Below, one piece after another: positions 1,393 through 58,700 of a stretch of DNA of 64,000 nt. The stretch's first letter is position 1. Every line of letters begins with the position of its first letter. A program made the position numbers and the translations under genes. The stretch comes from Siphonodentalium dalli (lineage: Eukaryota; Mollusca; Scaphopoda; Gadilida; Siphonodentaliidae). Location: NCBI GenBank assembly GCA_032622095.1, contig CP136062.1, positions 138,834,351 through 138,898,350 on the forward strand, written 5' to 3'. The notes under the pieces are model-generated. The model searched no databases and was not told the DNA's origin. It saw nothing but the letters and a program-made list of their open reading frames with translations.

Positions 1393-4300
1393 CTGAAATG
1401 GTAATATAAGAATGTCATTCTGAAAATAATATCAGGGGGGGGGGGGGGTAGTACAAAAATTGCAGGAACGTATACCGGGGTGGTGGGTGACCCAAGGGGC
1501 AAAAAACGCGTTTTTTACAACCTCATGCAATTTTTTTACTAAAGACCTTTTGTGCCCTTATTTGACATTTGTAACAGTTTAAAACATATTATAAGAATTT
1601 ATAACTGCAAAAACACCATATTTATGATACTGGGACCTCATATTGGGCCTTAGTGGATATGACAGTAAGCTATGGCATGAAGCCCAACTCATTGACAAAA
1701 CACTAAAAAACAAGCAGGATGTTTTTGTTTTAGTTGCGGAAAAAATTGCTTGTTGGTGGCTTTGACCACCCACCCACCCCGGAATTTATTTTCACCCCCC
1801 CCCCTGTCCCGATACCCTTCGGAAAGAAGCTTCGAGAAATGTAAAACTGAAATAAACTTGTTTTGATATAACTAAAGCCTAGATCATTGTGTGCATGGAA
1901 AAAGAATGAGCAACTGTCTCAAACAGTAATGTGACTATCAATGGCTAGAATATAACTGTCATCACACTGTTCATCAGTGCATCAAGCCAATCAGTGAAAC
2001 ATTTGCATGTCTATCAACTCATGATCGGTTACTCTCAAAATACCTAAAATATCCAAGTCTGGCATAGTGACTGTTTGTCATTTATTATAACAGAGGTTGC
2101 TCCAGTAGACTAACAAAAGTGTTAAGGCATGATGCTAGATAATGGGCTGGTTGACAGACAATAAACCCCTTCTATACAAAATACTTATTGACGAATAGTT
2201 CCCTCGGGAAATGTTAAGATAATAAGTTCATAAGTCGTTGAACTTATTATCTAAACATTTCCCACCACTGGATATGAATCATTCTGCTATTGTATTGTCT
2301 GTTTTTCTGTCTGTCGCCCTTAACACCCCTCCAAATTAATAATATACCATTCCAATATACACTATTATATACCCAAAATAAAGTTTAGTCAAAATTGTTG
2401 GGTTATCCAAAGTTGGATTATAGGTTAGGTCAATTTCCAGAAGTTGGGTTCAATTGTTGGGTTAGATTGTTGGGTTAGATTAATTTAGCTATTTATCACT
2501 GGTTTTCAGTTTCGCCCCTTGATTAAGATTTTCTGGATTTGAGCTCTCTTTTTTCAATTGTTTTGTTAAATTGTCTTCTCTTTATTGGTATCAAACTCAA
2601 ATAAATACACTGCGAAGGCATCTGTTATGTCAGAATTATGTAGTTGCAGTATTGCATGTGCTTTTTGTACACGTATTCTTTTCTAGGTTGTTAATTTATT
2701 CCCGAAAATGAAGTAATTATGTTACACCTCGTTTCGGACCAGGTTCGAAGTCTAGTTTAATTCAATATCGCTCCTATGTTCAGACGTTAACCCTTTCAGT
2801 GCCAGGGGCCGATCTCATCGGCCTTAATTTACGGTCTGTAAAATCGGCCCTAAATGTTTTTTTATAGATATTTTTGGGTTTAATTTGTTTTGGGTATGCT
2901 TAAGCATGCTAGAGCGAATTTAAAAACAAACTGGATAAAACCTTAGGGGCATGTTATAACTCAAAACTGTCACCAAGTATTCATAGTAATAATTTTGATG
3001 CCCATGAAAACTGTAAGATTCCCTGGCACTAAACCTACAAAATAAGTCTGTTAAAGAATATAAGAAAAAATATTAAAATTGTAAAACTTTTTAAAAAATA
3101 ATAACAAATGATGAAAAATTGTTTGGCCAATGCATACTCTTATATATGCGAGGCGACCTATGGTCGTCTCGCATATATAAGAGAATGCATTGGCACAGGG
3201 TATATGGGTTGATACAAAAAATCGGACTTGGCACTGAAAGTGTTAAGGTCCGAAATGAATCCATTGATTGGACTTTTTTGGGAATCCCAGATTATATGGT
3301 CAAAACTCATCCATTGAGATAAATTATAATTATATATTAACAAAGGTGTCTCTAACACCATGTTTAGTTACTTCAAACCCAATATTTGGTTAATTTAAAC
3401 CAACGTTTGGCTACAAAGTTCTGTTACCGTAACCCCATGTTTGTTACTTTTTTCTAACCCAACAAGTTTAGTTAACAGCTCTAACCCAACGTTTAGTCGG
3501 ATTTGGTTCACTGAACATCGGATTTGGTTCACTGAACATGGTTCACTGAACATCGGGTTAGAGTAACACTAACTTAGTTATATTCAACCGAATTTTGTTT
3601 AGCGTAACTGCCTGGGATAATCCATTTAGTATTGAACAGGGGTGAATTAATTGTAATAAGTAATCGTAATCAAAGTATTTGATTACACAATTTGGAGTAA
3701 TCACCTGTAATCAGTAATCAGTAATCATGATATTTTTTATTACAAGTAATCGGAATCGTAATCGATTATTTTCAAATGTACCTGTAATCATGATTACTGT
3801 TTATTAACTTTTTGATGTCCATGTGTACTAAAATGTCCATATGGATGGATATTGGATACTCATAGTCTCATACTGTAGTACTGTGGAGTGTGCACACATA
3901 CAAACAAAATATTAGAAAGTTAATACATGTTTTCTCCATGTGTTATAGTGGTACATTGTGTATATTCTGGCAGTGGACACAAATAACAACACACACTTGT
4001 CGAAGTGTTGAATACAGCATGCCTGGCAATAGACTTGTGATACAACACATCCATTCGAATGACAATGAAATGACCTCAGATGAATCAATAGGCTTGCCAA
4101 CTTCAATTAGGATTAAATCTTATTGTAACAATGTGTATAATCACACTGGTGCAATATAGAAAGGGTTAACCCTTTCATGACGGGAGCTGCGCTAGTGCAG
4201 CATTAAAGACATGTGCCATTGCATTCTCTTATATATGCTAGTCTCGCATGGGAACCTTTGCATGTTTTAGAGTATACTGGCTTACAATATTGTTAGGCCA

Positions 4301-7300
4301 ATGTATTCTCTTTTATAGGTGAGGCGCCATATGGGCGACTCGCATATATCAGTATATAAGAGAATGCATTGACACCAGGTTTTCGCAAAATTTCAGGAAG
4401 CTACAGTGGTGGAATGGTTAATCAAGAAGCCAACGATGTCAGACCAACCTCATAATCACATTTGTATGGGTTCATGTGCAATGTTCTTAGTTTAAAACAC
4501 AATTGACCAGTAAATGAATGAGTACATGCTCGGACAAAATTAGGTAACTTGCAAACAACTTTCAAATAACTTTCTAAGTAGAAAAAGAATCATAACGCTG
4601 CTGAAAATGGCCGCAAGTGTACAGGTTCCCATATACAGTGCTAAATATCTTTGTCAAGTTAAACTCTGATCGTAAAATAATTAAAGATGCACATATTGTT
4701 TGGAACTTTGATTCTGCGAACCTGAAATATTTATTAAACACCATCAACCACTTTAGCTGTTTTAATACGGGACATTTAAAGTTATTCTGAAGGAAACAAA
4801 ATATTCTATTGTTTGATATCACCATTATTGTAGCTAAAGAAAGCAAATTTTCGGTCAAAGATATGTGAAGGTAGAAATTAATATCAGTGCTGTTAAGTTG
4901 AACGGTGCCTAAAAAATATTGTCCCAACACAATATATGCCTTTAAATATTTCCGAAAGTCATGTCACTGGTAAGAAAGTAGGCCGCTCTTCCATGTCCTG
5001 GATCGAGAGCATGAGTGAGTGCGTGTAATATGTCTTTTCTCTTTTGTTATTCTGTGACCAGAAAATGTAGAATACGAGCTCGGACAATGTTGTGTCAACG
5101 ACGGGCGGACAGACTTGGCAGATATATTCCAGTACATTCCCACAACTTCGTTATACGGGGTATAATGAATATAAACATATAACATGGAACCCTGGATGCA
5201 GCTTTAACGGAAATGTAACACTATAATTATTAAAGCCCCTTTAGGTAAACAACGTAAATGACCATAATAGGTTATGATCAACGAGATAATGTTATGTTAT
5301 TCATATGGGGCTTATAATGTTTCGATATTTCCCACCAAGTATAATTGGGTTATGTCGCATACGTTGGGTGAGTTGAACACTATATATGTACGGCGAGTGT
5401 GTTAAACCCTACCTTCACTGTACTTGTACATGTGCATAACGTTGTCTTCGTCCAAATTTTTCACCATATAGACACTTGGTGACCCCACCATCGGATAGCC
5501 ATTCGGTTTCTTTGTGCTCATTCGCTTCCCAACGCTAAAAGTATATACAAGTGTATGTGTGACAACCAATCTCGGTTTTTTCAACTTTATTCATCAAATG
5601 AATTCCTAAAACAAGATGAGTCTGCTACTGGCAGTAAGTGTTGAGCCGCTTGTCGAATTAATTGATAATAATCGAGATAAATTTCACAAATATTGGCTTG
5701 AAAAATCAATTGAAGAAACACTTATTAAAAATCTTCGAATTGCACTAGTGGTAGAGTGACCTTGACCCCTGTATTCTTGTTTTACTTTCGCTTTAAAAAT
5801 TTACTACGATTCGCAGACACGTCTTGTTTTTGGAACTCGTTTTTAGTAGTAGAAGTAGTAGTAGTATTGTTTATTTGTATAATATGACATATGGTAACAA
5901 TACAATATTCAAAAGTATATTGTTCGTTTGATGAATAAAGTTGAACAAATTGGGCACACACACATCGGGTGAAATAAAAAAGGTATGGATGGCTCCGGAA
6001 TGACTTGCGGAACATAATGGGCATTTATAGGTAATGTCACCGCGTTTCAGTACACGTTGGCGAGAAATTATTGCTCGAAAATATTCATTTTAGAACTGGG
6101 TCAAAGGTCACTGAGCGCGGACAAGGACGATGACGATTTCTCCCGTAGATTCGGTAGTTTCCGATACGATATCTCGACTTCGCTTCGTTCCATTTGCCAA
6201 GTTTTTTGTCAAATGAAAGGGAATCTTATTGCCAATAAGGCACACTGGAGAATAATTTTGCTGAAATGATGAATTTATAGAATTTATTAGGGGTTTGATA
6301 GTTGGTGTGCATGGTCTTAGCCAAAATCGATCTTTTGAACCTTGCCACTGGTATATAGTCTACATTGGTATTTCAATATTTTCCCCAGGGATATTTTCCC
6401 CAGGGAACTGTGGCCCACCATTTTTTGTTTATGCTGTGAATTTCACAATCGTAGTCGTCTTTGATTTCCCACTCTATTTTATCAGCATTCACTTCAGCAA
6501 ATATGAATCCCGTGTCGTATGGAATGTTGGTGTCACCGTTCTTGATTGCCTTCAACGGGGATGGACCGCAGCACATCAAACCTATATAATGGGAATATAC
6601 GAATTAGTTATTATTGATATCTTGTTACACAAAAAGGAAGCACAGAAGTTTAAATACATCAGGCGGTTTGCGCTCCAAAATACACCTAATAATATTCGCT
6701 TTTCAATTTCCCGCCGGTATCGCAATATGTCGATATATATCCCAAATTACATTTTTACTAGCACTATGTGACCCGCCATATCAAATCCAGTCGTAAGTCG
6801 GGATGATTTTTTTACCCTGTGCCAATGCATTCTCTTATATATGCGAGTCGACCATAGGTCGCCTCGCATATATAAGAGAAGGCATTGGCCTAACAATTTT
6901 TTACAATTTTAATAATTTGTTCTTGTATTCTTTAACAATTTTTTAATTTCACCCATACAGAGCCCCAGACAAACATGAGCAGACGACACTCTTCTATATG
7001 CTTCTATATATGTGTGGGGGCTCCCTGCAGGGTAATGGATGTTTTTTTTATTTTATGTCCTAAAAATGGTAAGAAACATTTATTTTTTAAAAATGATAAA
7101 AAATTGTTAGGCCAATGCATTCTCTTATATATGCGAGGCGACCTATGGTCGACTCGCATATATAAGAGAATACATTAGCACAGGGTAAAACAAATCCCGA
7201 CTTACGACTGGATTTGATATGGCGGGTCACATATATGTCCCAACAAGACGCATTGAAGTCATACAGATATACACCTCCAAATACAATTACGAACTAAACA

Positions 7301-10300
7301 TTTTTATTCATCAGAATTTTGGAATCGGAAACGGACTATATCCGGAAAAGGATATATTGTGTTATCTTAACCTGAAACTATTAAAGTTTTCACGCGGTGC
7401 TTTCTCTCCATTTAATCATCAAAATTATGTACATAAACGCTTAAGAGCGACGACTGCTCTAGATTTTCTTCCCATGTGCTACATGTAGTACAGCTGCAAT
7501 TTTTCGAAACCACTGACTAAAAACATTGAACCGACACAATGGAAATCTCAATTTATCGAAAAAAAACAAACAAAAAAACACTTATATTCAGTGCTATATC
7601 GACGAATTTGTTCGAAAATCTTTCGCGTAGGTATATGTTTTGAGATACCTCTTACCGAATTATGTAAACATAATTTTGGTGTTCGAATAAGCCATGCCAG
7701 GTTAACCCGCGGCTTCATGCATAAGCCACAATGATCGGTCGTGATGACTATGATGAAGACGACAGGAGGCGGAAATTCTGTGCAGATGAATATTAAATTC
7801 ATTGGAAAATCACACTATACTGCATTCGAAAAAAATCGGCCGCTCTAAACAACTGACGTCAGTTTTTCAGTCGATTTTCAGTACCTATATTAGAGAAAAG
7901 GTACCCTGTTTACTGTTCCAGCAAAGAGGAACTGTGATTTATGTGAGGGTGTAAAATTTGTCGCCACAGCGCCACCTTAACCCCTCCATGAGGGGCATGA
8001 CGGGAGCCTGCTGGTGCAGCATTAATTATCGCGTGACAGTGCATTGAGTCTCACACAAGGAGTCTCGCATATATAAGAGCATGCACTGACTTACCAGGTC
8101 AAGGTAAATATTGTTATGGCAATGTATTCTCATATATATGCGAGGCTCTTTTTGTGAGACTCCAATATTTAAGAGAATGCATTGCCACAGGATGTTCGTA
8201 ATGTTTCAGGAAACTCCAGTCATGGAATGGTTAATTTTCATCACAGCCTTAGTTTTGGAACCAGGTGAGTCCTGATCGGATTATGCTATTATGCATTAGG
8301 TGTAACATGTGTTGCTATGGTGTTCCTATGGAGATGCAAGTACGTGGTGAGAAGAGTCAGATTATTTTTACTGCGTCTTACCTACGTACGGACAACGTAT
8401 ATCGAAACTTGTAAATAATAGTCGGGTGGTGAGAAAAAGCGGTCACAATGTGACCAGTGATACGATTGATTGGCTTCAATTAAATTAATAAATGTCCACG
8501 CAGGCAAATGTCTGCCCGATTATCGTTGGTCGCTCATTCGGTTATCAGAAGATTTGATTATCCCTCTTCCCTACACGTTGGACTTGAAACTTTTGAACAA
8601 TTGACCGTACGTGTAGGTGTAGGATAAATGTTCACGTGAGTCAGGTGACATCAGCTGTCAATGGGTCATTTCCACTTATGACTGATGGGACAAGCTAGAA
8701 AATTAGCTTTTTTGACCCCTTGTTATTTAAATTTGAGTGATGCTTCATATAATTATATATGTGTTTCTTGAAGAGTGTGAACCACGCTCTAACACTATTT
8801 ATTACTGCTTCAATGAGGAAGTATAACATGGACAAATAGTTTGATTGTTCGTCATGTGACTGATGGGACACTGTTCGGACACGAATTTTGAGTACCCTCA
8901 AGCAAAGGAGCACTACATACAACAAATAATGTTACACTCACGTCTCATTGACTCAATATATAACTATTGCATTTTCCTTCCCCCTAATGTGGTTTATGTT
9001 TCCATGACCATGCCCATTCAAAACCATGGAGTGGTAGTTGGCGTGACTGATGGGACATTATTTTCGTGACTGATGAGACACGTATCAACTTCTGCATGTT
9101 TTGTTGCAGTATTCTGGACAGGAAGTCATTTGCTGACTTTTAAACACCATAGTTTTGAATCTTGGCAACAATCACAATGAAAATTGAATTGAAACAGTCC
9201 TAATAATAAAATAATGTATTCAGAACTAATATGCTGGGATTTCCGTTTGTGTTTGGCTGGAGATAAGAACATGCTTTAATGTTGATTAGTATGTACATGT
9301 TGGGTTTATAGTTTAGAAGAAAAGTGGCGATAAATTGGTGCCGGTACATAGATAGTTAAGAGTCTGAGTAATATAAATATTTGAAGAAATTCTCACAATC
9401 TTTACGACTTTGCTGTTTGTTAGCATTTATATTGTTTTTATATTCCTTTTTGAAAAAAGGTCCTATTATGTAATCAGTATGTCCGCCCATCTGTCCATTG
9501 ACATTTTTTGGTTCCAATCGATAACTCTAGTTTGGATTATTTTATCTGAACCAAAGTTGGTATGTGTATTTCCCAGCTAAAAATACAGCCTATTATACAG
9601 GCCAAGATCGAATATGGGTTCCATCCAATTATTTTTACATGAGTTACGGCCCTTTTTCGATTTAGAATATGAAGGTCTGTTAACATTTTTGGTTTCCTAC
9701 CAATAACTCCAGTTTGGATTATTTGATCTGAACAACAAAAGTTGTTATGTGTATTTCCCAGCTAAAGATACAAGCCAAGTTCGAATATGAGTTCCATCCA
9801 ATTATTTATAAATGAGTTGCAGCCATATTTAGACTTAGATTTTGACCGCATTTTGACATTTAAATTATGGATATATTAGACATTTTTTGTAAGGTCAAAT
9901 TATTTATTTTATTTTGCAGTACAATTCAAAATGGTTAAAGGGTGTGTTTGCCACACCCTAGCGATGATCACGTTAAACAGAAATGTCCATGTCTAACAGT
10001 AAAATATCAGTTAGACAGCTTCACATGTAGCAAATGATTCTAGTTCCAAGACAGTCACTTAATAACACTTGATTATGATATGCAATACTTAAATGTTAAA
10101 CTGAATTCAATCTGATTATTCTCTATCAGTGTTGGTTTTTGTCATTGTTCACTATGGAATTATACAAGGATTATTTAATAATGACAAATTCAGACAGGAA
10201 ATATAAACTACCGGTACTCAATATGATACTGGCAGTCAATATTATGAAAAATAAAGTTTTGTTTTCGATGTATATAGGTGATTTCTGCATCAATTCAGGG

Positions 10301-13300
10301 CCATTTGAGTTTCGCTGTATCATGGAATCCTATGTATTTTGTGACTGATGGGACATTTTTGCGGGAGCCCATACATGAAAACATAAGATATTATGGCAAC
10401 TGTTGTTAGTGCAAACATGTTAAGACAAGTTGATAGGGATATGAAAACATGATTTGGTTGGGGAAGATGAAACAGTTTTTATGTACAATACTTTCATAAC
10501 ATAATTTGTGACTGATGGGACATAATTTTGGGCCAAAAACTAATCTTAGTCTTCTGACCATAAACTTTAGCGGTGGATCTCCAACTAATAACAGATCTGC
10601 AGAAAATCGACCCTCTTTTTTAAAATTCACATTGAAAATATTGTGGCATATGTAAGAATTACACTGAAAAAAAGAGTTTGACAATGAAAACAGTATGTAC
10701 TGTGACAATCGGAATTGTCATAACTCCAGATTGGAGTGAGCAATCCACAGAATATCAAAAGTTTCGGGAAATTGGGGATTCATTTTTCCAAATAAACAAT
10801 ATCACTGCATGAGTATTGAATTTTGTAAAATTGACCAAAATGGAAGTTTTAAATGGAATTGACCAATGGCAACACACGTTGCAAGTTACACATACGTGTG
10901 GCTGATTCCTACCTCCACTTCTTTCTTGTGGTGTGGCGTCGATTGCTTGCCAGCCATCATACCCTGTCAAGTCTGGTCTCGCCATCCAAACGTCATTCCA
11001 AACATGAAAGTTCCTGCAAAAATGTGACCCGCCATATCAAATCCAGTCGTAAGTCGGGATTTTTTTACCCTGTGCCAATGCATTCTCTTATATATGCGAG
11101 TCGACCATAGGTCGTCTCGCATATATAAGAGAATGCATTGACCTAACAGTTTTTTTTACAATTTTAATAATTTTTTCTCGTATTCTTTAACAATTTTATA
11201 ATTTCACCCATACAGAGCCCCAGACAAACATGAGCAGACGACACTCTTCTATATGCTTCTATATATGTGTGGGGCTCCCTGCAGGGTAATGGATGTTTTT
11301 TTTATTTTATGTCCTAAAAAATGTAAGAAACATTTATTTAAAAAAAATGATAAAAAATTGTTAGGCCAATGCATTCTCTTATATATGCGAGGCGACATAT
11401 GGTCGACTCGCATATATAAGAGAATGCATTGGCACAGGGTAAAAAAAATCCCAAATTACGACTGGATTTGATATGGCGGGTCACAAATGATATCGCGCTC
11501 GTTATGCGTGTTGATTTGATGTCACACGCGCTCCCAAGGGGGTGATATTGAAAAGTTTGATCGATCCTGATGCGCCTGATCTGGCATTATACCGACATTC
11601 TGTGATAACTGGTTGTCACTGAAACTCTAATCTACCATATAGATCTTTATTACCAGTTTATATCTGGAAACAGTCCGATCATGCGTCTCGGTATGTTCCA
11701 TGTTTTATTCACTCTAAATGCCATTGGGTACGATTTTAGCCCAACACCAGTGACCGAGTGTTCACATGGGAAGTTAAAATATGTTCAGTAAAATGTACCC
11801 AATATATAGTGATATTAGGTATAGAGTAAATCTGAAATCATTTGACCACGCCGTGTTGTTAAAACAAAGTAAAATGGCTGGCGATTTCGTTATCAACAAG
11901 TTGAAAGAATGGGGCTTGATGGACTAAAGGAGTCATTCGAAGTTATATAGATTCGTTACGCAACAATATATTAACATAATTTGTGTCACACACAAGGCTA
12001 GCTGTTCTTGATTTTGTTTGGTTTAGTTATCTGTCCGGCTACGCATAAGCGACCAAACGGGGAGTTTCGTGGGATAGTTGACATAAAGTGTATTAAAAGG
12101 GAATACATTTAACTATATAATTTAGTATAGACACAAAATGGTTGGAATCTGGTCGTTGACAATTGATTCAAATCGGTATATTGGCCAGATGAGTGTCATG
12201 GGATAGGTACCGCTGACTACTTAAATGGCCACTAATAATATAAATTTAATTAAATAATTAATCATATTCCCAAAACGGTCGGACCCTGGTCACTAGAAAT
12301 TGGTGAATTGACACGAGAGTATACCATCGGATAGGTGCCGTTGACTTTATGGGGGAACTTAAAGATTATTTTACCATAAATTATCAATAAAGAGCGTTCC
12401 ATATCAGATTAGCGATATGTAGAAAAATTGGTATACACGGGCCACCTGATCAGAATAATATAATGGAATATGTGCCTTTCATAGCATATATCCCTTAACG
12501 GGGGGTTAAATATTTTAAGATAGGCGATCAATGAATCATCTCAGAAGATATGTGGGGGGAATTTGCACGTGAACAGACGTACTGTTACACAAGGAATGTC
12601 GTGGGATAGATGTAATGCCGTTGACCTCAGATAACTTGAAGAAACTCTAATAATAAATAATAAAGAGCGTTTATTTTCAATTTAAAACACAGAAGTATGA
12701 CTTGAAGGGGCACTAATAATTAGTAATAAAGAGCTTTTATTTTCAACTTAAAAGACAGAAAAACTGCATTCGGAGAGTGCCATGCCATATGCGATGTATA
12801 CATCAAGTGACCAATAATTAATTTAAATGACTGGATGGGCACTGATAAGTTACTCATTCTTTACCCGAGCAAGTTATTTTTAGCCCAACGTTAGTGGTAA
12901 TAAATCCTCCAAAAGTAGTTGATTTGACTCAATAATTTAATAGTTATTCACCCAATGTTTGGTAAAGAAAAATTGGGTCGAGTAAAAACATTGACCAACA
13001 TTGGGTAAAATTGGCTCAAATTGGGTAACATATGCTCAGAGTCTAGCCGTATATGCGGAATTAATTACGCGGTAGACAAGTCACGGTTAATAATATCTTT
13101 ACGTATCATGAATGAATTTTCAAATAAATTATAGATGTCGACAGAGTGCATGCGTGATAACAAAACAGAAACAAAAAACAGACGGCATATCACTTACTGG
13201 CCAATGTTTCACGACAATATTTCCATCATAGAATAACAGTGATAGAGATTATGACCCTGTACGGTGTAAAGAAATGTCTTTGAGCACCTCACTTGTGACA

Positions 13301-16300: not shown

Positions 16301-19300
16301 TTTGGAATTTTTTTTTTTCTTTTATATTCCCAATAATGAGCCAATATCTTGGTATTTGGAATTTGTGTGGCAATTTCCACAATCCACTCTCTCGACTATG
16401 ACTGTGAGTGGGTGTGGGAGCGATTTTGAGCAGTTTAGTATATATCTTAACAAAAAATCTGGAGCGGGCCAACATATCGGGGTGGGGCAATGATAATCAA
16501 GGTATTTATTTTGCATGGTCGAACTACAGGGAAAGTAAAAAAAGATGTCAGGTGCAAAATGAAGATATTCTAATAGTAGTATTACTATACATCACAAAAG
16601 TGAACACAAACATTTGTATGGATCAATCTATCCTCTGATCAGATAGTTCATGCAGACGGTGCCAGTCACCCTACACCGTGGCTGTGAACTTGTGGTATAG
16701 ATGAGCATATCTGTCCACTACATGTAGACCTTTGACAATCACACACTATATGCATGTACCGTATGGTAATAGGTACCTATATATCCCCACACATCAACTA
16801 TGATTCAAAGTTGTAGGAGAACATCCAGAATTATTTAAAGCAGAGTCGGTCAAATATTTAGTTGTTCTGATGTGAAATTTTTCATGGCATGTCAATCGTC
16901 TGAAGAGTGAAGTCAACTTGATTAGTTTTTGCTCCGAATCTGTGTTAAATAAAGGATGTGATGCTGTCATAATCCACCACAAAGTTGGTACACGTTTGTG
17001 AAATTAAACCGAATAGTCAAATATGTGGCATATGTTGTTGTGTTGGTTAAAATCATCAAAATACACTTAACTTGAAGTTGCCGCAAGTTCATGTCATCTA
17101 TATGACCTTGTCAATCTACTCCAGTCTCCACACACACCTTTGTCTTGGAGTCCAGTTTAATGAATACAATCCACCAATCAGAACATAATTATGTCCAAAT
17201 CGCCAAAGCTGTATGCTTACTGTTTTGTGTCTGGCCTGAGTTGACTGATCAAATCACTTTCTGATCAAGTTCATTTTCAGTGTTTTTTTTCTGCAGTTGA
17301 TTTGACTTTTTTGAGATTGAGTTATGAGTATCACATTTGAGATTTTTACTCAATTTCGGGTTTTTTATTGAATTAAATGAGCAGTTTTCTAAAAACATGG
17401 AAATTTAACAGTTATTCGCACGAAAAAATAAATCGGCTGTTCATTCATTCGTGGAATGCACAAACATCGTCTATACATTCGAAAGAAACTGCATAAAACA
17501 CTTATTTAAACTCCGGAAACAATTTACTTTCGACATCGCTAAAAGCACCCGACCTTAAGAACGTACTAGCGCATGCGCAAAACTTAAAACCATTACTACC
17601 GTCGTATACGGCGTGTCCGTCAGTCTTCTCCAAAATCCAAACCCGCGATCTTTGAAAAATCACTGATTGATACAGAAAAAATAATATGACGCCATTCACC
17701 TGTGGCTAAAGTATAAGCAACCACATGCGCATATGCGGTGCGCTTGTCGTGGCTATTAAAGTGATGTGAAACGTAAATTGAACCTCACAATTGAGTTCCC
17801 TGCGTTATTCTGTGGGAAGAGTGAATAACATAACCCCGATACACGAAACCCCCCAACCAGAAGTCAGTTTGTGCATATACGGCCATGCAACTAACTGTTT
17901 ATGTGGGGACTAACTTTAGTACGGATCCGGATCCGGATACGGATTTGGCCGAAAAAGTGCTTTCTTACGGATCCAGTTGCGGGCTAACCTGTTAGTATAA
18001 TATATACACAGTGTGAACACGTTGTTAGTTGCCAATTAATTGTCGATATTTCAATTATAAAACATGAGATGTGAATGCAAAAATCAAGACATTATCTTGT
18101 TTGTTTTTTGTTGAATCTACTTTCGGTTATCGACATGCCGGCTATTGTTTTTTTGACTGTTCTGTCAGCCGTGCGTGCCAGCCGATCGTCGTTTTTCGAG
18201 CGGTTCCGATTTCTTCCGAATATCATTCCATGACCGCCACGCGAGGATTCGCGCCGAAAATGTGGTTGTATCTGAGATTTCTTACTCTGACCGCAGTTTT
18301 CAACAATTTAATACGGGGCGAATACCGCACCAATACTATGCCACCTTGGGGTTTTATTTCTAGTTTTTATGACCTTTCTTATGGTATATCGGACACAGTT
18401 CTGTCTGACATGAAATATATACCCACCGGGAGTGAAGCTACTGACTTTAAGTGCAATTCTGGAATCGGAAACGGAATAACGCGCGACTTCCGGAAAAGGT
18501 ATATTGTTTTATCTTAAAGGCACGTGAGGCCTTAGTTGTCGAAAATATTCATATTTGTTCCAATCACCGTAAACATAAAAACATTAAAACGCATACAGTT
18601 TCGTTCATATATATATACCATGACCATCGCGTAAACAGCATGTTAACATAAAGACCTAATATATTTTACCTAAGCAAGAGCCTGATTGTGTTACAGAAGA
18701 CAGCACAATGCTATTGGCTAATCACACACAAATGGCATAAACGCTCTTTATTAGTTCCATATCAGGAATTCACCCACAAAGAACGCTCTTTATGTTTACC
18801 ATCATAATATAAACAAACACCAGAAAAGTAACTTTTTATGCTTTTTTTTACATAACAATGGTCAAACATATGACAATAACATACTGTTTATGCGATATTT
18901 CTTATTTTTATACGGACAAAGTCTGTCTACATTTTGTTGTTCTTTCTGTTTGTGGCGGTTTTTGACGGGTGGAAATATTTTCACAGGATACCCACCGCCA
19001 AGACCAACCGTACCTTTAACACAGAACTATTTAAAAAGAAACGTCACACTGCTTTCTCTTCATTTTAATCACAAACATTATGTGGTACCATAGACGTTTC
19101 AGAGCAGCGACAGCTCTACATTTTCTTCCCATATATAGTATCAATTTTATATGACAGCGGAATAAATAATTGAACCGGACACAAACGAAACGATCTCTAA
19201 TTTATCGGAAAATATAAGAAACAAAACACGAATTTTGAGCGCTATATCGGAATTTTGAGCGCTATATCGGAATTTTGAGCGCTATTTTGAGCGCTATTTT

Positions 19301-25300: not shown

Positions 25301-28300
25301 TAACATAAAGACCTAATATATTTTACCTAAGCAAGAGCCTGATTGTGTTACAGAAGACAGCACAGTGCTACTGGCTAATCACACACAAATGGCATAAACG
25401 CTCTTTATTAGTTCCATATCAGGAATTCACCAACAAAGAACGCTCTTTATGTTTACCATCATAATATAAACAAACACCAGAAAAGTAACTTTTTATGCTT
25501 TTGTTTACATAACAATGGTCAAACATATGACAATAACATACTGTTTATGCGATATTTCTTATTTTTATACGGACAAAGTCTGTCTACATTTTGATGTTCT
25601 TTCTGTTTGTGGCGGTTTTTGACGGCTGGAAATATTTTCACAGGATACCCACCGCCAAGGCCAACCGTACCTTTAAATCGATCGAAACAGGAAAAAACAC
25701 ATAAAGATAATAAACAATTCCGAAAAAAGTGACGGAAACATTCCGATCTCTAGATTCTGTTTGGGGCCCCCCGGTGGTCCAGTCGGTAGAGTGCCAGGTG
25801 TTTTACGCCGTCACAGGCCGTCCAGCGCTGACGAAGCTGGTTCGAACCCCGTCATAGGGAGGGTGACCGGAATCGTGTATCTGGGCAAGTTTGTCAATTG
25901 CTTTCCGGGGGTCGGTGGTTTCTACACGCAGTGGAACAATTTCCCGGTAAAATTAAGCCTCTGCGTGGTCGTTCCTCCACCCGTAAAATTGACAACGTCG
26001 TGTGTGGCCTAGCGACTAGAACGACGATAAACCCTAATAAACAACAAAAACAACAATCTAGATTCTGTTCGTATTCAATTCCTGATGCTAGCTATTTTTA
26101 TGAACATCCTTCGGAAAAATGATAGAATGAAAACATTTAATTGGTTTCAAGTCGTTATCCTTTTCTCCGTATGTTGATCATATGTAGGGCATGCATGGAG
26201 TTTGATTTGGTGTTTACACGTCATTGTATAGGCCATATAACACTCTCGAACAATTGATCCATTTATTCAGAATCACGGGATGCATGTGTCTAAATTACCT
26301 AAGGGGCGGAATTCACACATCGCGTCATTCACAGTTTATATTTTCCTGCAACAATGAATGACTATCGGACATCAAATAATAGTAATCCTTTTCCCATACC
26401 ATAACTGATTTGGTATAATATGGCCTTGGAATGTCTTCTCTGTATAATGTTATACGTCAGTTATATCACATGTTATCATACCCACACATACCGTGATAAA
26501 TGATCCGGGTGCAATGGAAGAAAACAATGAATGGCATCCATTGGATTTAGATATCAGTATATCCACAAAATTAAAGGCAGATGGGTCGATGTTATGCTTT
26601 TAATTACATCCTATTTATTAGTTATATATGTTTCATGTTGCATGCCTATATGCAAAGCGACGTTGATCGAAAAGAACCCCTATACCTTCCGGTGAGAAAA
26701 TAAGCTAATTAATAGCGCGCTCTATAGTGGCCCAACAGAAGGGAGGTAATAAAAGGCAGTAATTTATTGTAACCCGGGAATGGTCTATTTAGGAATCACC
26801 ATATATAGAAGTTGTGTAAACCACACTCACTCATCCTCCAAACTTCCAAGAAAATCCATTATCATAGGACTGTTTGGCAATTATGTTATCGTGATTGGTA
26901 TTGTTGTGAGTATTTATTGGTAATAAACTCATTTGGATAACTAAATCGGCTTTTGGTGATGATACGGGGACCATCGAATAGAATTAAGAATCTTTAAAAC
27001 ATTCAAAGAATTGGAATGAGTAACCGGCTGTAATGTTCCATATAGATAACAATACATCATATAGATGTTAATCTAATTGCGTGAGTGAACCGATAAATCA
27101 TTGGTGAACCGGAGCCTTTTTTTTCTCTCACAATTTTCAAATTTAATTATCTCCATGTTTCTTACAGTGTTTGTCGTCACAGAGGGTGAAACACAATCGA
27201 ATGTTGCTGCGTATATAAAACACTGTGTGTCCTGGTGACATATTTGTGAAAAAACGGCACATAAATGTCCAATGCTTTTGTATATGGATTAACACCTTGT
27301 AACAAATTGTAGCAATCTGGTGAAATTACGGTGTTATACTTGTGCTATTTTTATGATTTTCAAGGTTCATTCATTCCTTTACAAATAAATAATAAAAAGA
27401 ATACACATACACTCAGCTTTATTGGAATTTAAGAATTTACGAACGCATGTGTGTTTTCTTACCTCAAGTGAACTGGACTATACCGTCAGTGAACTGGGCG
27501 GGAAATCACAAGCGGGCCTATTCTCTAGGAGCAGTCCCCCAGTGTCTCGCCTCTCGTGAATTATTTAACTAATTCTCGGAACCAATTGATTACTCTCTAT
27601 ATTAACATGATCGGACGGCCGTGATAATTTCCCCTTATCTACTAACCAGTGGTGGTGAGAGCGGAGAAGACCCAGCATTGACCGTATCTAACCGGCTCTT
27701 TCGTGTTCTCATATTTTCGCAGTATGTTCTCACTACCACACCAGATCATTGGGCTACACCCTCCACTGTATTCGCCATCCCATCGCCCAGTTAAGATTCC
27801 TCCCTCATCACTAGAGTTGACCTGTAATATAAGTTTACGATAGCGCAGGTTTAGACATGGTTTATCTCTTCCTATATAACAAGTTCTAAATAGTATCCTT
27901 GGTATAAAACAATACACGTGACTGTCCGAAAACGCTTCTATCAATTAATATCGATGTTATTTCAAACTGTCTGGTATAATATACACACACTGAGCTTGGG
28001 ACATTTTACGGCTCGAGTTCTTTCAGATCGTAGCATGCGGGATAACTATAAAAAATATAGAAATAGTAACGAATAGTTTTTCAAATTGATTATCGCATTA
28101 TATAATAAAATATTTATATAAAATCAATATTAATTGATAGAAGCGTTTCCGGACAACTGTCTTTGTCATATGTCCATAATTGTTTACCCCGGATACTATA
28201 TAAAACGTATTTAAGAAGAGGTAGACCATCTTCAAGATTCACAATTTTCAGTGTTCTATTCAGGCCTAGTAATAGTCTCTTTTAACCCTTTACCCAACAA

Positions 28301-31300
28301 ACCGGCCAAAACCGGCCAAATAAAGCTTCAACAGCCTAAAATATCTTCGGTCTGTCTCAATAGAACCATACAAATATGGATATAATTGGCGCCGGCTCAT
28401 TGACCACATTGTGATGGTTACAGTTATGCCCTGTGCCAATGCATTCCCTTATATATGCGAGTGGACCATAGGTCGCCTCGCATATATAAGAGAATGCATT
28501 GGCCTAAAAAAATCTTTTTTTAAACACTTTTTACCATTTTTTCTTACATTCTTTAACAATTTTATAATTTTTAATGTGTTAAGCCAATGCATTCTCTTAT
28601 ATATGCGAGGCGACCTATGGTCGACTCGCATATATAAGAGAATGCATTGGCACAGGGCCGTTCTGTTGGGTAAAGGGCTAAAAGCCGACGAAAATGTTAC
28701 CTTATTTACGTCTCTGGATATCTAATTCATAATCAGTTACTGGATTGAATGGATTTCCCCCATTTCATTGGAGAGCGGCGAAGCATGCGCGTGATTTCAT
28801 TGGTTTATGGAATAACATATCACTTCACATATCAGAGGTCAATGTCTTGTTATTAATCCCCCCACGCATTGTCAAACTCAAACTATATACAGGTGATATA
28901 TATCCATAATTAATTTTCCTCATCGCAATATCAGCCAACGATATTATACATGACGGATTATTCTTTCGCATCTTGCTGTATTTATATCTATTTCTAAATA
29001 CTACGATTCTCACAAACATACATAACATAACGTTGGTCACAAATTCGATATATAGTGGTCACCTTTCAAAATGTAAGTAGTGGAGCGCCACAGTGATTTA
29101 TTATTGGCCCAGCTTTATTTCTAATCTGTATCGACGACTTGTCATGTCACCCGTTTCAGCTCTACAAAAATCCATGTATTTCATTTTTTGGCACAATAAT
29201 CCAAATCTACATTACATGATTACAGACAACCCAACTCGATGTATCACAAGACTGCGGGTACTTGTTCTCACCTGTACTACATGTGAGGACGATTTCATGT
29301 AAATGTTACTAATATTCAATATGACAGATACCCCCACAATTTTCTCCGTCAAAATCATTGAAGTTGTGCACACAAGGAAACTTTCATCACGTCATGCAGA
29401 TATTACTTGATAAATTCCAAAAGCTGGCGGATGTCTGGTAAGCTTTAATTGATGTGTCGTTTATTAGATCAAACCGTCCTAGAATCCGTGAATTGACCAA
29501 AGAATATACAAGGTAAATAAATACAAGGGCACATACATGCAGAGCTTGTTTTGTCATGTATGATGATAATTTTATGTTATAGTTCCGTTGTCATTGTTGA
29601 GGCGAACGTCATTTACACCGTGTGACGTCAGCGGAATGCGTATGCCACACGTGGGTCATACGCATGTGTAAATATGGCGCAGCAAGAACACTGAATTTAT
29701 AGGAAGCAGCGTATAATAAATGTGAAGAAAGCACTTACGGTTTCCGATATCGCTCTAGAAAGTCTTATTGGATCCGCCATACACCTGGTGATTTTTCCAT
29801 TGAAAGCTTTCCTTACTACATGCAGGCAAATATCCAGGATGTCTTCCTCGAACTGAAACGATAGAATCAACATCACATATTACACATGTAATTCATGCTG
29901 GTGCGATATGTTACTGCCATGTTTGATATATTTAAAGATGCACAATCCATATTAAAGCTCCTAAATTACTATTTCTTCGGCTTCGGGGTTAAAATGGGCA
30001 TTATCATCTTCATAATAAGCATCATCATCAGTAACACCGTCATCGTCGGCGCCGTCACAATCATCGTCATCATCACCACCATCGCCATCACCATTATAAT
30101 CAACATTATAATCAACATTATCATCTTCATAATAAGCATCATCATCAGTAACACCGTCATCGTCGGCGCCGTCATCATCATCGTCATCATCACCACCATC
30201 GCCATCACCATTATAATCAACATTATCATCATCATAATAAGCATCGTCATCAGTAAAACCGTCATCGTCGGCGCCGTCACCATCATCGTCATCATCACCA
30301 CCATCGCCATCACCATTATAATCAACATTATCATCATCATAATAAGCATCGTCATCAGTAACACCGTCATCGTCGGCGCCGTCATCATCATCGTCATCAT
30401 CACCACCATCGCCATCACCATTATAATCAACATTATCATCTTCATAATAAGCATCGTCATCAGTAACACCGTCATTGTCGGCGCCGTCACCATCATCGTC
30501 ATCATCACCACCATCGCCATCACCATTATAATCAACATTATCATCATCATAATAAGCATCGTCATCAGTAACACCGTCATCGTCGGCGCCGTCATCATCA
30601 TCTTCATCATCACCACCATCGCCATCACCATTATAATCAACATTATCATCATCATAATAAGCATCGTCATCAGTAACACCGTCATCGTCGGCGCCGTCAT
30701 CATCATCGTCATCATCACCACCATCGCCATCACCATTATAATCAACATTATCATCATCATAATAAGCATCATCATCAGTAACACCGTCATCGTCGGCGCC
30801 GTCACCATCATCGTCATCATCACCACCATCGCCATCACCATTATAATCAACATTATCATCATCATAATAAGCATCAATATCAGTAACACCGTCATCGTCG
30901 GCGTCGTCACCATCATCGTCATCATCACCACCATCGCCATCACCATTATAATCAACATTATCATCTTCATAATAAGCATCATCATCAGTAACACCGCCAT
31001 CGTCGGCGCCGTCACCATCATCGTCATCAGTAACACCGTCATCGTCGGCGCCGTCACCATCATCGTCATCATCACCACCATCGCCATCACCATTATAATC
31101 AACATTATAATCAACATTATCATCTTCATAATAAGCATCATCATCAGTAACACCGTCATCGTCGGCGCCGTCATCATCATCGTCATCATCACCACCATCG
31201 CCATCACCATTATAATCAACATTATCATCTTCATAATAAGCATCATCATCAGTAACACAGTCATCGTCGGCGCCGTCACCATCATCGTCATCATCACCAC

Positions 31301-34300: not shown

Positions 34301-37300
34301 ATTCCAACTGATTTATTGTCAACACTCGATCGATCTATGACTTCTAGAATCCAATTGTTGAAAATGTTACCAATATGAGTGAAAGAAAAGCAACATCCTC
34401 TTCCAACTGCCACCTAGCTCGTCCTTGATGAAAGCAACTGATTATCATGGGGCTCATCTAATCTAAATACAAATTTCCAACAACCCATAACGCTAAGTAT
34501 AACATCGGCCAATAACGCGAATACAAATCTATATCATAATATCTTTTTTGTTGCTGTTGGCTCGCCATACATTACCAGTCAATGTGATGAATTCTACCGG
34601 TAAAACAGTTTGCGATTTCAAAACGTGTACCGGTACGGGTAGCTACCCGTACGCGTACCCGTACCCGTACCGGTTTGAAATCGCAAACTCGCTAGTATCA
34701 TCATCAAAATAAACACAATCATTCGTAACACCGCCAATGTCTGCGCCGTTATCATCATCGCCATCGTGACCATCGTTGCCACCATCGTTGTCAGCATCCA
34801 TCAGCGTGGTCATCATTGTCATCTTCGTCATCATCATCATCATCATCACAACCTCGCTGTTGTCGTCATGGTATTAGAATTAATTACCTGAGTTGGTGAT
34901 CATTGACCACATTAAATTTCATTTAACATTATAGAACATTGAGAGGAATACTACGAATGATCCCACAATTGGATAAATCTCCCTGGAGGAACACCAGTAT
35001 GGTATTATTATTGTAAGATATCCGATCTGATTCGACAAATTCCCAAGCCTATTTAAAGCTTACCATGCCGAAAATTAAAAAATACTTAAAATCAACAGCA
35101 ATCGTATTGTAACGGCATTGATATATTTCACACAATCAACCATAAGTAACACGTCGAACACTATCAGTTAAACTCGTTAAAGGCACGTGAGGCCTTAGTT
35201 GTCGAAAATATTCATATTTGTTCCAATCACCGTAAACAGAAAAACATTAAAACGCATACAGTTTCGTTCATATATACCATGACCATCGCGTAAACAGCAT
35301 GTTAACATAAAGACCTAATATATTTTACCTAAGCAAGAGCCTGATTGTGTTACAGAAGACAGCACAATGCTACTGGCTAATCACACACACATAGCATAAA
35401 CGCTCTTTATTAGTTCCATATCAGGAATTCACCAACAAAGAACGCTCTTTATGTTTACCATCATAATATAAACAAACACCAGAAAAGTAACTTTTTATGC
35501 TTTTGTTTACATAACAATGGTCAAACATATGACAATAACATACTGTTTATGCGATATTTCTTATTTTTATACGGACAAAGTCTGTCTACATTTTGATGTT
35601 CTTTCTGTTTGTGGCGGTTTTTGACGGGTGGAAATATTTTCACAGGATACCCACTGCCAAGGCCAACCGTACCTTTAACCCTTTCGTGACGAAGCTGCGC
35701 TGGTGCAGCAATAAAGGCCACGTGCCAGTGCATTCTCATGTATGCGACTCCCACATAAGGAGCCTCGCATTTATAAGAGAATGCATTGCTTAGAATATCA
35801 AGGTAAATATTGTTAGGCCAATGCAATCTCTTATATATGCGAGGCGCCCTATGGGAGAACACATTGGCACAGGGTTTTCGCATTTTGGGCGACGAAAGTT
35901 TCTACGCTTTTTAATGGGCATGTGGGTCCGATTTACATGTACTTAGTGTGTGGCACACATAATGTCCATATGGTGCTTTTACGGTGTCTTTAAACAACAA
36001 TACATCTCATGTCAGAGAATCTAGTTTTATATGATTTTTTATGCATCCATGTCATTATTTTTAAAGTTTCGGTATATATGTACACCAACCTGAGCAAAGT
36101 TCCAGGCTTTAGCCGATATTTGTTCACTGTTGCCTTGGAAGACGACTCCAGCATCATTTAGAACGTATTCATCAAGAAGTTTCTCTGGAGCCATGTACAC
36201 GCCATCATCTGCAATAATTGTAAAAAAAACGAAAGTGGTGATGAATTCCATTATCTCACGTATACTTCTCAACTTGGGGCATTGTTTTTCTTCCGTAAAA
36301 CACACTGTAGACGCACCCGAAAACACACTTTAACCCCTTCCATACTAATAGCTCCTCCCATTCAGCTATTGAAGTATACTTTGGAGCGGTCTATTATACA
36401 TCTGGAGAGGTGGTCAGGCATTATAACCAGACGACAGACAGTAGAAATTGAAGAAGGAATCCTACCCGTTGGTGGGAAATGTTAAGACAATAAGGTCAAC
36501 GAAACGATCTACATTTGTTGAACTTCTTATCTGAACATGTCCTAAGGGGTGACAACTCGCCAGTGAGTATTTAGTAAAGAAAGGGTTAACGGAGTACTGT
36601 ACACTAAATCCAGTCATTAATGGGACCATATCCTTTATACTCAACAATATAATATATGCGACAAATGAATGAATTTGAGCCATATGTGCTTAATTTACGA
36701 TACAAATAACATGGTAATTATAATTAAAATGAATAAATGGCTGGAGTCATAAATTCATTTTCATTATAATTACCATATTGCTTGCATCGTTCATAAAGCA
36801 CGCGAGTGTATTTTTGCACTAATCCATGGCTCCAATTCATTCATTTGTTGCATTTATTCTTTTGAGTGTAAAAGGAAATGGTCCCACAAATGGCCGGATT
36901 TAGTGTACAGTATCCCTTTAAGAAATGGATGTTGATTTGAACAAGTTCAACACATAAAATGTCACAACAACTAGCACAAACAATCATTGGAACGCAACAA
37001 AATCAACATCAATTCCTTACATTTACACTCATCTGACAGATTAAACGGACATGGCTTATTCGAAGCCCCAAAAGTTGTCTACGTAATTTGGAGGGACGGA
37101 TTCGATAGGTCGATAAATACACGAAATATTGATATACCGGCTTCATATGATTTTAAAAACACATGCCAAAGTCACCACCATTTTCCAACCGTGTTCAGTT
37201 TTTTGTCATGAAGTCAGACAAATGCTCTTTATTGCCATCATATCTGAAATAGCATAACACGGAACGCTCTTCTCTGTCCCATGTCGTGCAAATGCCTGTT

Positions 37301-46252: not shown

Positions 46253-47192
46253 CGTGCTATTCACACTATAGTACACATCACGTGCACAGATGCCGGTGCG
46301 ATGCATATTTATATGTATGATGCCATATCCGGATCTAAACAAAAGCCAGGTCCTGTAACGTTTTTTTATTTTGTTTACATAAGGAAAACATTTGACAATC
46401 ACATACTGTTTATGCCATATTTCTGATTGGTATAAGAACAAAATATGTCTATATTTTACTATTCTTTCTGTTTATGGCGGTTTTTGACGGAGGTGAATAT
46501 TTTAACAGCATACCCACCGTGTGTGGTCCATTCTCAGCAAATCGGTGCATTTTTAGATCCGGATATGGTAAACATAAAGACCGTTATTTGTTACTGTTTT
46601 CCTGATATGGAAATAATAAAGAGCGTTTATATCATTTGTGTGTGATTAACCAATATAATTGCGCTGTGTTATGTAAACAGAAGCAAAACTTCTGTAACAC
46701 GAGCAGGCTCTTGTTTACGTACATCATCGTACGTCTTGACGATAATATACTATTTACGCGCTGATTATGTTTGGCATATGAACAAAACTATATTTTAATA
46801 TTCCTTCTGTTGATGGCGATTTGAACAAATATGAATACGAACGCCGCCTGTGCCTTTAACTTCAATCGTACGTCCCCCCGAAAACCATTATTGGTTAGCA
46901 AGCAACATATTTTGCTTTGCAGACATTACAGAGCAGCCAATATATCCCATTCGTATTTACCAGTAAGGGCGACTCAAAAATTTCACGGAAATGTGAAGAT
47001 CTCTACACATCGCGATAATCAAGGGGATATTTTCAAAGAATCACGTGTATCGCACACGATTCACCATAACCTCATTAATTATCATACTAGCCAACATTTA
47101 CCCACAAATTTGGATCTTCGGTGTCCTATATAAACTCGCCTCGTTATTACCACACAGTGAGATATCTTGGTTAAAAAAATATATTTTAGCCG

Positions 47193-51717: not shown

Positions 51718-51738
51718 CGGGGGGGGGGGGGGGGGGGT
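51718..51738 (+). repeat. Homopolymer G run
   Basis: About 19 consecutive G; length is likely unreliable in sequencing. Confidence 0.85.
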
Positions 51739-53522: not shown

Positions 53523-53689
53523 TAATAAACAAGGAACTATTTTACGGACATGCGCAATATGCAAGATATAGAAGGGTGGTATGGTATCGGATCAAACTGT
53601 AGCTGATCCGATGGTCGGGAATTGATCGCTTTACTATTGTGGTATTGGGTGGGGGTGAAAAACGATAGTCATATAATAAATTAATTTCC

Positions 53690-55397: not shown

Positions 55398-55403
55398 TTT
55401 ATT
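55398..55403 (-). promoter_or_regulatory. Polyadenylation signal of gene B
   Basis: AATAAA on the minus strand (tttatt on plus), 169 bases past the gene B stop codon, the first such hexamer after the stop and at a normal 3' UTR distance. The cleavage site is not defined. Confidence 0.6.
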
Positions 55404-55571
55404 TTAAAACAATAAATGATGCATTAACTAATCAGTAACTTAATCCGAAACTGGCGTTGAACAACAGGGATTCATGTGGGATGAGTATTTTAGTCTCGGA
55501 ATAAAAGCGATATTGCACCATCGTAAAGATGTAGCACCATCAACAATGTCCATCTGACGTCACTCGACGCC

Positions 55572-55713
55572 TTATTTCGTAACTGTCATGCTAGCAAATC
55601 CCGATAATTGTGGAAGTTCATCACAGTCCATGCTCACTACGATTTGTTTCTTTCCAAACGTTTTAGGTCTGAAGCTGAATTTCTGTGTCCATGAAACCTC
55701 TGCACCGATATCG
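55572..55713 (-). CDS. Gene B final exon with stop codon
   Basis: Acceptor ttccgcag; C completes Ser. Encodes WTQKFSFRPKTFGKKQIVVS and ends GFASMTVTK followed by TAA (55574-55572). It matches the closing strands of barrel 2 (FxPxxxGxxxLxxxxxSxxLxxxxG). 46 residues plus stop. Confidence 0.9.
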
Positions 55714-58700
55714 CTGCGGAAGAAAATAATATACTCAAAATGGCATCAGAACAAACGGGGAAACAATTGTTTCAAAATAACATTAATATAACGATGTAAT
55801 CAGGGTTCCGAGTCAATGTTTCCCAATATATTTCGCTTTTTATTCAGATACTACCATATCAAATAACACAAAAGAACTTCAGTTTTAAAGATAAACTACA
55901 CATGCACCATGTGATCGGGTGCGATATGTTGGTATCAATTGTGAGTTGAAAACACAGCAAATGTCAAGTTGGCTAACCAAAGTTCATTTTTCGTAAATGT
56001 GGGTACCCAACACACCAAAATGTGGCGATAATTACCCATTCGTCTGTACTAAATACGTGTTCCAGCATTCTCATGAATCCATAAGTTTGATGATTTATCT
56101 TCAATTCAGATTTAACCCTTTCATGATGGGAGCTGCGCTGGCGCAATATTAAAGACCGGGTTCCAATGCATTCTCTTATATGGCCTAACAATTTTTTATT
56201 AATTTTTCTTATATTTTTATAATATTTTTCTTACATTCTGTAACAATTTTATCATTTTTTCTTGCATTCTTTTTAACAATTTTTGATAATTTTTTATCAA
56301 TATTTCTAACATTCTTTAACATTTTTTTTATCATTAGTTTCATTTTTTCTTGCATTCTTTAACAATTAAATATATAATATACAATTTACTTAGGCCAATG
56401 CACTCTCTTATATATGCGAGGCGACCTATGGTCGACTCGCATAAAAGAGAATGCATTGGCCAATTTGGCACAGGGTTTTCGCAAACATTCAGGAAGCTTT
56501 CTGAAAAAATGTCCATTGACCATCAATGTTGAAATTACAACCTCTGTGTCACATTGATACAACATGTATATATAACGTGTCTGTTGCGTGGTTCTATTCG
56601 CGTACCTGAGCTGCATCTCCTGCACGTCACTCGGTCCGTCGACAATAACAGAGCATTTCGTCAGGGGAACAGACAACGGATTTATGAAGCTGACTTCGAT
56701 GTCTACAGTTTCTCCAATACGGCAATCGGCTGGGAGCTGACAAATATACAGAACTAATATAGAAACATCAGCAAGCACAGTGTTTAAAGAGGATATAGTG
56801 CCAGGAAGCCGATACAAATGGAAAGTTAAGGCATCAAAGTCTAGGTCTTATTCAAGATTGCCTATCTCTTCCTTGACCACAATTACAGCAACAATATTTG
56901 TTATAAGACCTGATTTCGCAACATATCCTCGTGCAAAAAAATTCAAATTGGACTTAGATGTTCACAGGTTCATATTGGACTTATTTGATTCTGAAATATG
57001 CTTCCATGGTGGACTTAGTAGTAGTAGTAGTGTTTATTTGTACAATATTTATAGAAATATGGTAACAATACAATATTATATGATATATTGTATTATACTT
57101 ATACCCATGATCTCTTTGACTGGCTTGAGGCACAGTAGAAACACAATATAAAGAGCGTACATCTGGTAAGTTGTGAGTTGGTTTATTCGTGTTATTTTCA
57201 GAATCCCAAAATGAACTTATAATAAGTTAATATAACATTTGACAAGTACAACAATACTGTAACGCTTCCAGTAACGAGGAGAAGTGTGCTCCTATATGTG
57301 TTCCTATGTATTGCAGCATAAACACACTTTTACTCCGATTGAAAAGTTGTAACAGCATATAATTCATAATAGCATAAAAAACTTCATTAAAATGCCAATG
57401 AAATGTATCAAGCTAAAATGACTCTCATTTCTGTCCGTTATGGATTCAAAATGCCGCGATTCTAAGCCTATTGTGAACCAAAAACAAATAATATTATTAA
57501 TCCATAACGTTAATCTTCACGAGAACAGGCTGGAGTTCAAGAATACACATACATTTTCCCGAAGATTATGTAGATTGTTCATCTATAAAGGCATATAAAG
57601 TAGTTTATTCCTCCAATATATTTGAAGCTAAACGGTATTCTGCCTTGTACTGATGAAGAATACTAACCAGATAGAGTTCTCCCTCTTGCTATGCTCGGAA
57701 TGTGCCTTTAGGTTAAAGTGGAATAATTATCTCCCATATACCTCAGTGTCAACATATAATGGCATGCAGCCCTGACTATCCACGAATTGTGATAATTGAG
57801 TACATGATCACCAGTATTGGCATCTGCACAAAGTTTCTGCATGAAAAAATCATATAGGCGGGCATGGAATATACCTTTAAATTTGGGATTTATAATCTAG
57901 AGTCAGAATTGCATGAAAAAAATATTGACATTTTTTACCTCACACCAAAAATATTCAATCTAGGAAACACGTGCTTTACAATGTTCCAATGTTTTGTTTG
58001 GAGTCTGAAATTTAAAGAGGAGTGATTGCATATATTTTATATGTTTAAATATCGAAACTACTATTAACCCTTTGAACCCGACTGGCCGCAAAAGCGGCCA
58101 GCCAGAAAACTTTCATACACCCGACTGGCCGCAAAAGCGGCCAGCAGCGTTCAGTGACATCATAAACCTATGTAGCATGTGTATACATGTTATAACCATT
58201 GGTATATCCACTTATATATATGTAAATGATCCCAAGGAACTTCAGCAGTGCCATGGGTGCTTGTGTATGAGTTTGTTGCCGACTAGTTGGGGTAGAAAAA
58301 CATGCGCATGCGCACAGTGCAGAATTCAACAAACGTACATTATTTGAAGCGATTCGGGTAAAGCTCTACATTGTTGCGCGGTTCGCAGGATTGTAGAAAG
58401 ACACCATTTCGATCACTCTTTTTGGTTTAAATTAGTATTGCATACACAATCAGTATTCTGTCATATGTGAGGAAGGCGCACGCAGTTTCTTATTTGAGTC
58501 GATTTGTTTCGCGCATGCGCATAGGATAAAATGATAAATGTATGGATTTTTGTGAAATGATACAATCACATCAAGGATCTCCATAATACATAAATTTTCG
58601 TTATACAGCCGCACGTTTTGACATTGCACCAGAGTAGTACTGTGGAAATGGGTTGCATGGTCACAATATTATCTAGTTCGATCTACTTGCGGGTGCACAT

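Follow-up and report, generated by a model that had tools for sequence, protein, structure and literature searches.

How do short transposable elements with different ends come to carry the same interior? The question is raised by a 64 kb stretch of contig CP136062.1 (assembly GCA_032622095.1; hereafter the window, to whose full length all counts given here refer), in which eight short transposon-like elements with four kinds of ends, labelled A to D, share the same hairpin-rich core. The core consists of CCCTGTG, a palindrome, an AT-rich spacer, the inverted palindrome and CACAGGG, each palindrome being roughly 70 bp long, and the elements that carry it measure 230-470 bp, which is too short to encode a transposase. 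A first-pass annotation had already noticed the same palindrome pair in elements with four kinds of ends, and the exact strings are indeed present where it placed them. The reading preferred here, with a probability of about 60%, is that the core, an internal module common to these elements, was copied from one miniature inverted-repeat transposable element (MITE) to another rather than inherited together with the ends, the B family being its likely source.

Architecture of the core

An exact-string check of the window places complete core pairs in elements C, D1 and D2, within a few bases of the first-pass figures (Table 1). Their arms are 80-109 nt long and 93-96% complementary, and the arms of A, C and D are each palindromic in their own right, with 30 to 32 of 32 scored pairs standing around a 3-nt loop. 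The pair is thus an inverted repeat whose arms are themselves palindromes, as the first-pass annotation described it, although the palindromes are internal and not, as it also supposed, terminal. A profile of the arms, run against the window, recovers 15 arms in the eight elements, all with E values of at most 0.0072; a further distinct match, next in rank at 50893 with E 0.035, was treated as chance.

The outer edges of the core are sharply placed on the right: A, C, D1, D2, B3 and B4 have CACAGGG at one and the same base, and the CACCAGG of B1 and the CACAGGA of B2 lie within about a base of it. The left edge, CCCTGTG, is found in C, D1 and D2 and is absent in B1, B3 and B4. One position of the inner stem is unpaired in all 14 aligned arms (T-C in 11, T-T in two and A-C in one; the alignment omits the left arm of B4, a fragment of 20-odd bases), and because every arm shares this flaw, all copies of the core probably descend from one slightly imperfect palindrome. 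Strong secondary structure is predicted for part of the set: five of the seven A, C and D arms fold at -29.8 to -36.3 kcal/mol, with z-scores of -11.7 to -15.6, and the right arm of B4 has a z-score of -10.3, whereas the other five B arms folded range from -0.4 to -4.9 (the right arms of D1, D2 and B3 were omitted).

Not every element has the whole core. Element A, which the annotation placed at 2791, does carry it, but only as the right arm (3120-3200) and part of the spacer. The family with CCCTTTCATGACGG ends, B, had been listed in part; it has four copies (starting at 4166, 7977, 35675 and 56112), with the core in all four, three of them older and partly decayed. The fourth, B4, has a young-type right arm (56390-56460), a long AT-rich spacer that matches the spacers of the D elements, and a truncated left arm (56157-56181). 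In C, the core starts about 21 bp from the right tip.

Table 1. Positions in the window of the core-bearing elements, of one comparison element and of core arms
Feature	Position	Strand	Description
Element A	2787..3246		Ends CCCTTTCAGTGCC / CACTTTCAGTGCC; flanked by TTAA target duplication; subterminal palindrome at bp 17-33
Element B1	4166..4421		Left end CCCTTTCATGACGGGA, followed by palindrome at bp 17-32; TTAA on each flank; older core ~4211-4378
Element B2	7977..8234		TTAA both sides; older core ~8034-8191; left end altered
Element B3	35675..35905 (end approximate)		TTAA left only; right end worn; older core ~35720-35872
Element B4	56112..56515 (end approximate)		TTAA left only; B-type left end; right end worn
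Element C	28282..28681		TTAA left, CTAA right; ends CCCTTTACCCAACA; complete core 28429-28657
Element D1	6767..7231		Ends TGTGACCCGCC; inverted end repeats ~47 bp; TA/TA flanks; complete core 6815-7185
Element D2	11023..11485		Second D copy; flanks AA/AA, or AAAT/AAAT if ends one base shorter; complete core 11068-11439
Element E (comparison, without core)	58064..59646		TTAA/CCCTTTGAACCC, 1.6 kb; TTAA both sides; palindrome at bp 15-34
Core left arm of D1	6815..6895	+	CCCTGTG and palindrome, 32 scored pairs, one inner-stem mismatch retained, 3-nt loop
Core right arm of D1	7105..7185	-	Inverted copy of D1 left arm
Core left arm of C	28429..28507	+	
Core right arm of C	28577..28657	-	32/32 scored pairs intact

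Ends and transposon class

Three of the four kinds of ends start with CCCTTT directly after TTAA, and on this ground A, B and C are one superfamily, namely piggyBac-type non-autonomous MITEs, each family with its own ends. The first-pass wording 'unrelated families' consequently holds only for D. The 10-mer TTAACCCTTT, TTAA followed by CCCTTT, occurs nine times. Across 200 simulated sequences that preserve the dinucleotide steps, its mean count is 0.245 and its highest is 2. No hexamer directly follows TTAA in the window more often than CCCTTT. The tips that deviate are the right tips of A (CACTTT) and of B1 and B2 (CCATTC) and the left tip of B2 (CCCCTC). In the portions of PMC10813416 drawn on here, CCCTT is given as the most conserved piggyBac tip and CTAA is recorded as a variant target. 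A further probable TTAA element, with tips CCCCTT and CCCTTT, lies at 36330-36589 and has a 69%-identical relative at 2164-2360, and at 4160-4175 two TTAA-type ends stand back to back (AAAGGG-TTAA-CCCTTT), as if an insertion had occurred exactly at another element's edge.

The piggyBac left end, as described in part of PMC7351741, contains a palindrome at bp 17-33 that is bound by a CRD dimer. Of the eight pairs scored in this register, 7 are complementary in A, 7 in B1, 6 in E, 5 at tip G (36589, minus strand), 2 in C, 2 in the right end of E and 1 at tip H (4169, minus strand), and 0.1% of random draws of window positions attain the summed score of 30 (p 0.001). The other B copies score 3 (B2), 3 (B3) and 5 (B4), and the five right ends tested score 2-3. 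When the start is left free at bp 14-19, a perfect stem of at least 4 bp is found in seven of the nine TTAACCCTTT tips, three of the nine being B copies, versus 15% of random positions. The left ends of A, B1 and E thus look like piggyBac left ends, and that of C does so only loosely. A p of 4e-05 obtained for four chosen left ends refers to a selected subset and was not used. In the left end of E the palindrome CTGGCCGCAAAAGCGGCCAG appears twice, 43 bp apart, and the interior of E contains a direct repeat of about 430 bp with 75% identity.

The tips of D, TGTGACC...GGTCACA, have neither TTAA nor CCCTTT, and its flanks are TA/TA in one copy and AA/AA in the other or, with the ends taken one base shorter, AT in D1 and AAAT in D2. 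D is probably a fold-back MITE of a superfamily other than the TTAA/CCCTTT type. Single-strand transposons of the IS200/IS605 kind, which are recognised by hairpins, and Helitrons were considered and dropped, because terminal inverted repeats (TIRs) are present and most of the elements duplicate TTAA.

Exchange of the core between elements

Arm identity between families (A, C and D) is 91.4-97.5%, and 95.1-97.5% within D, whereas that of the adjoining 40 bp between families is 33-53%, as compared with a shuffled mean of 48.5%. With cores at 91-98% and flanks at background, the first-pass proposal that the core has passed between elements with different ends is upheld. The same comparison bears on the contrary view, which the annotation had set against its own, that the elements form a single superfamily in which the core was inherited and the ends gradually drifted apart. 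The TTAA and CCCTTT common to A, B and C would fit such a history, but near-identical cores between background-level flanks do not, and D, without TTAA and CCCTTT, already contradicts it; gradual divergence is very improbable.

Further signs of exchange come from B4, whose ends are 77-86% (left) and 72-81% (right) identical to those of B1-B3, and whose right arm is 96.2% identical to the C and D arms compared, as against 80.5-92.6% to B1-B3 (gaps left out). Exchange probably came about when a break inside one MITE was repaired by copying from another MITE as template, the palindromes perhaps provoking breaks or template switches and so acting as break points. The donor would be the B lineage, in which all four copies have the core and three have older versions of it, and each family would be mobilised in trans by its own transposase acting on the outer ends. 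PMC3212995, in the section of that paper drawn on here, raises the possibility that, once a double-strand break has occurred, conversion copies the interior of a MITE from an ectopic site.

Several observations weigh against this reading. The right arms of B1 (87-91%) and B3 (92%) are also, for the most part, nearer to the C and D arms than to the old-type B arms (81-86%), as is expected if C and D have stayed nearer to the ancestor; the B4 arm could then be no more than a B arm that has decayed less, and the long spacer of B4 is the stronger hint of exchange. Neither a donor nor an empty site nor an intermediate was seen in the 64 kb, where A and C have one copy each and D has two. Finally, random repair tracts are expected to have scattered ends, whereas the edges here repeat, leaving room for a discrete unit; the nearly constant core edge is the main point against random repair tracts and the best point for independent mobility.

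Independent mobility would make the core a mobile element of its own, with CCCTGTGCC as its ends, nested in pre-existing MITEs, for instance at the central TA of a tiny palindromic ancestor of D. Besides right edges that are nearly constant across four families, this idea has in its favour the TA that flanks the core on both sides in D1 and D2, and the observation that D minus its core would, from the coordinates, be a TIR-to-TIR palindrome of about 95 bp. None of the eight copies in the window is free-standing, however, all 15 arms lying inside identified elements, and the outer parts of those elements amount to 1.7% of the rest of the window, which makes four independent random insertions into them improbable. 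The core edges of C have no direct flank duplication of 2-10 bp, and the TA of D belongs at the same time to the inverted repeat TTTA/TAAA. Since all copies are embedded and C is without a duplication, independent transposition, as the first-pass annotation had suggested it, is weakened to a rival rather than the leading view, and is unlikely. A bolder version, in which the core would be a parasite of MITEs, a discrete double-hairpin module copying itself into different superfamilies (the piggyBac type and the D type), carried along by any transposase that happens to be active and needing no ends of its own, must be counted a long shot.

Exchange between MITEs, the preferred reading, matters beyond this locus. 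The origin of MITE interiors is an open question, and core sharing could be used to test whether families are assembled by exchange of parts; a near-identical core between unrelated ends, with sharp and repeated edges, would in addition allow a test of palindromes as the setters of break points. MITE families grouped by the similarity of their interiors can, moreover, mix elements moved by different transposases.

Conserved part or decaying copy

Is the core kept for a function, or is it a copy that decays once it has arrived? Between D1 and D2, 6 of 162 core-arm positions differ versus 12 of 299 elsewhere when gaps are left out (Fisher p = 1), and 6 of 162 versus 19 of 306 (p = 0.29) when the 7 gap positions, all outside the arms, are counted; the latter comparison leans toward conservation and, with two copies, is not significant. 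Because the D copies have no significant extra conservation in the core, it looks recently exchanged rather than anciently kept. Broken or G-T pairs number 4-10 of the 15-32 scored in the B1-B3 arms, 2 in the right arm of B4 and 0-2 in the arms of A, C and D.

The stems were also compared with 500 shuffles. Paired cells make up 90.8% versus 87.5% when shuffled, and the covariation score is 0.105 versus 0.068, no shuffle being as high in either measure; cells changed on both sides number 10 versus 4.4 (1 of 500 as high), and eight of the ten belong to two inner pairs next to each other. No such excess is seen in the pairs changed on both sides, which number 4 versus 2.8 (a value reached in 128 of 500 shuffles), or in further pair types (197 of 500). 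All these values are to be read with the caveat that related sequences can exceed shuffles of this kind without any structure.

The measures in excess would suit a core that is kept for a function, either as a binding site of transposase zinc-finger (CRD) dimers or as a transposition enhancer, such that families capturing it spread better. Published work offers parallels, each as far as the parts of the sources used here go: piggyBac CRD dimers bind a palindrome at bp 17-33 of the left end, which the 63-bp right end contains as well (PMC7351741), piggyBat binds palindromes (PMC11707139), and a role for the core of the coral CMITEs, discussed below, was speculated on by its authors (PMC2872659). 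The core palindrome starts, for its part, at about bp 45 of the B1 and B2 right ends, about bp 49 in A and bp 27 in C. It is, however, far longer than the 17-19 bp CRD site, and different palindromes are already present at the left ends of A, B1 and E. The covariation is weak, pairs changed on both sides being unremarkable and the changed cells concentrated in two inner pairs; the D arms have no significant excess conservation and the old B arms have decayed, which also weakens the first-pass notion of a functional part acquired by unrelated families. A conserved function is distinctly unlikely, and the pattern is read here as decay after insertion combined with recent exchange, a reading that leaves room for selection on rare active copies only.

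Genomic setting

The window is probably animal genomic DNA. Among its Pfam matches are a minus-strand transglutaminase N-terminal domain (42439-42918, E 4.9e-14) and, at 22694-23095, a fragment of a reverse transcriptase. A weak match to the transglutaminase C-terminal domain, below the cut-off (E 0.083), lies at 56386-56847, and its open frame extends into element B4. Searches of viral and prokaryote collections with the core and the D end gave no matches, as expected if the DNA is animal; an Rfam scan gave none at gathering thresholds, and a tRNA search found none. A 2.3-kb tandem array at 29999-32319, with a unit of 105 bp and multiples of it, is open over its full length in one plus-strand and two minus-strand frames, and a separate interspersed repeat of about 112 bp occurs at 18691-18802, 25348-25459, 35350-35461 and 46565-46676, the first three copies being 84-86% identical to the last and opposite to it in orientation.

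Relation to known systems

Fold-back, or palindromic, MITEs form a class of their own. Most of D1 likewise folds into a single long hairpin and D2 has the same inverted arms, but, unlike in that class, each D arm holds a further complete palindrome. Palindromic MITE-like elements are mentioned in PMC3212995, in the section available.

To the extent that their sources describe them, the ends of piggyBac and piggyBat combine a TTAA target with a palindrome, as do A (bp 17-33), B1 (bp 17-32) and E (bp 15-34). Where piggyBat has GCGGGA, B1 has ACGGGA at bp 11-16, and where piggyBat motifs repeat every 44 bp, the palindrome of E repeats 43 bp further in (PMC11707139, in part). The likeness to the piggyBac left end has limits, in that the fixed register fails in C (2 of 8 pairs), in B2 and B3 (3 each) and in five right ends (2-3).

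The closest parallel lies in corals. In the literature searched, mostly without subscription papers or Repbase, no description of the double-hairpin core was recognisable by titles and the starts of abstracts, and a literature text search with the sequence strings returned only papers unrelated by title. The first-pass annotation likewise knew no comparable element, yet core sharing between elements with different ends had been described in 2010 for the CMITEs of Acropora, which, in the parts of the report used here, are MITE families of the piggyBac type, with TTAA duplications and with ends that differ but mostly read CCCTTT (PMC2872659). Their internal region is more conserved than their ends and its origin was termed a mystery; the same report presents one element with the internal type of another family, and elements built by insertion (PMC2872659). 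The printed 60-base CMITE core, which contains a 16-bp palindrome with a 5-bp stem, has no relative in the window, its best match there being 10 bases long (E 2.4).

Like the CMITEs, the elements described here are families with different ends around one shared and more conserved core, carried by A, C and D and in older form by B. Unlike CMITEs of about 100 bp with a 75-base core, they have two long, inverted palindromes around a variable AT-rich spacer, and, unlike the coral families as far as these are described, they include a carrier, D, that is not of the TTAA type. Core sharing between MITE families is real and well delimited, and D, which is not piggyBac-like, is its most interesting part. 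Measured against what the coral report describes, the phenomenon is the same as in the CMITEs; new are the double-inverted-hairpin core and its presence in a non-TTAA element.

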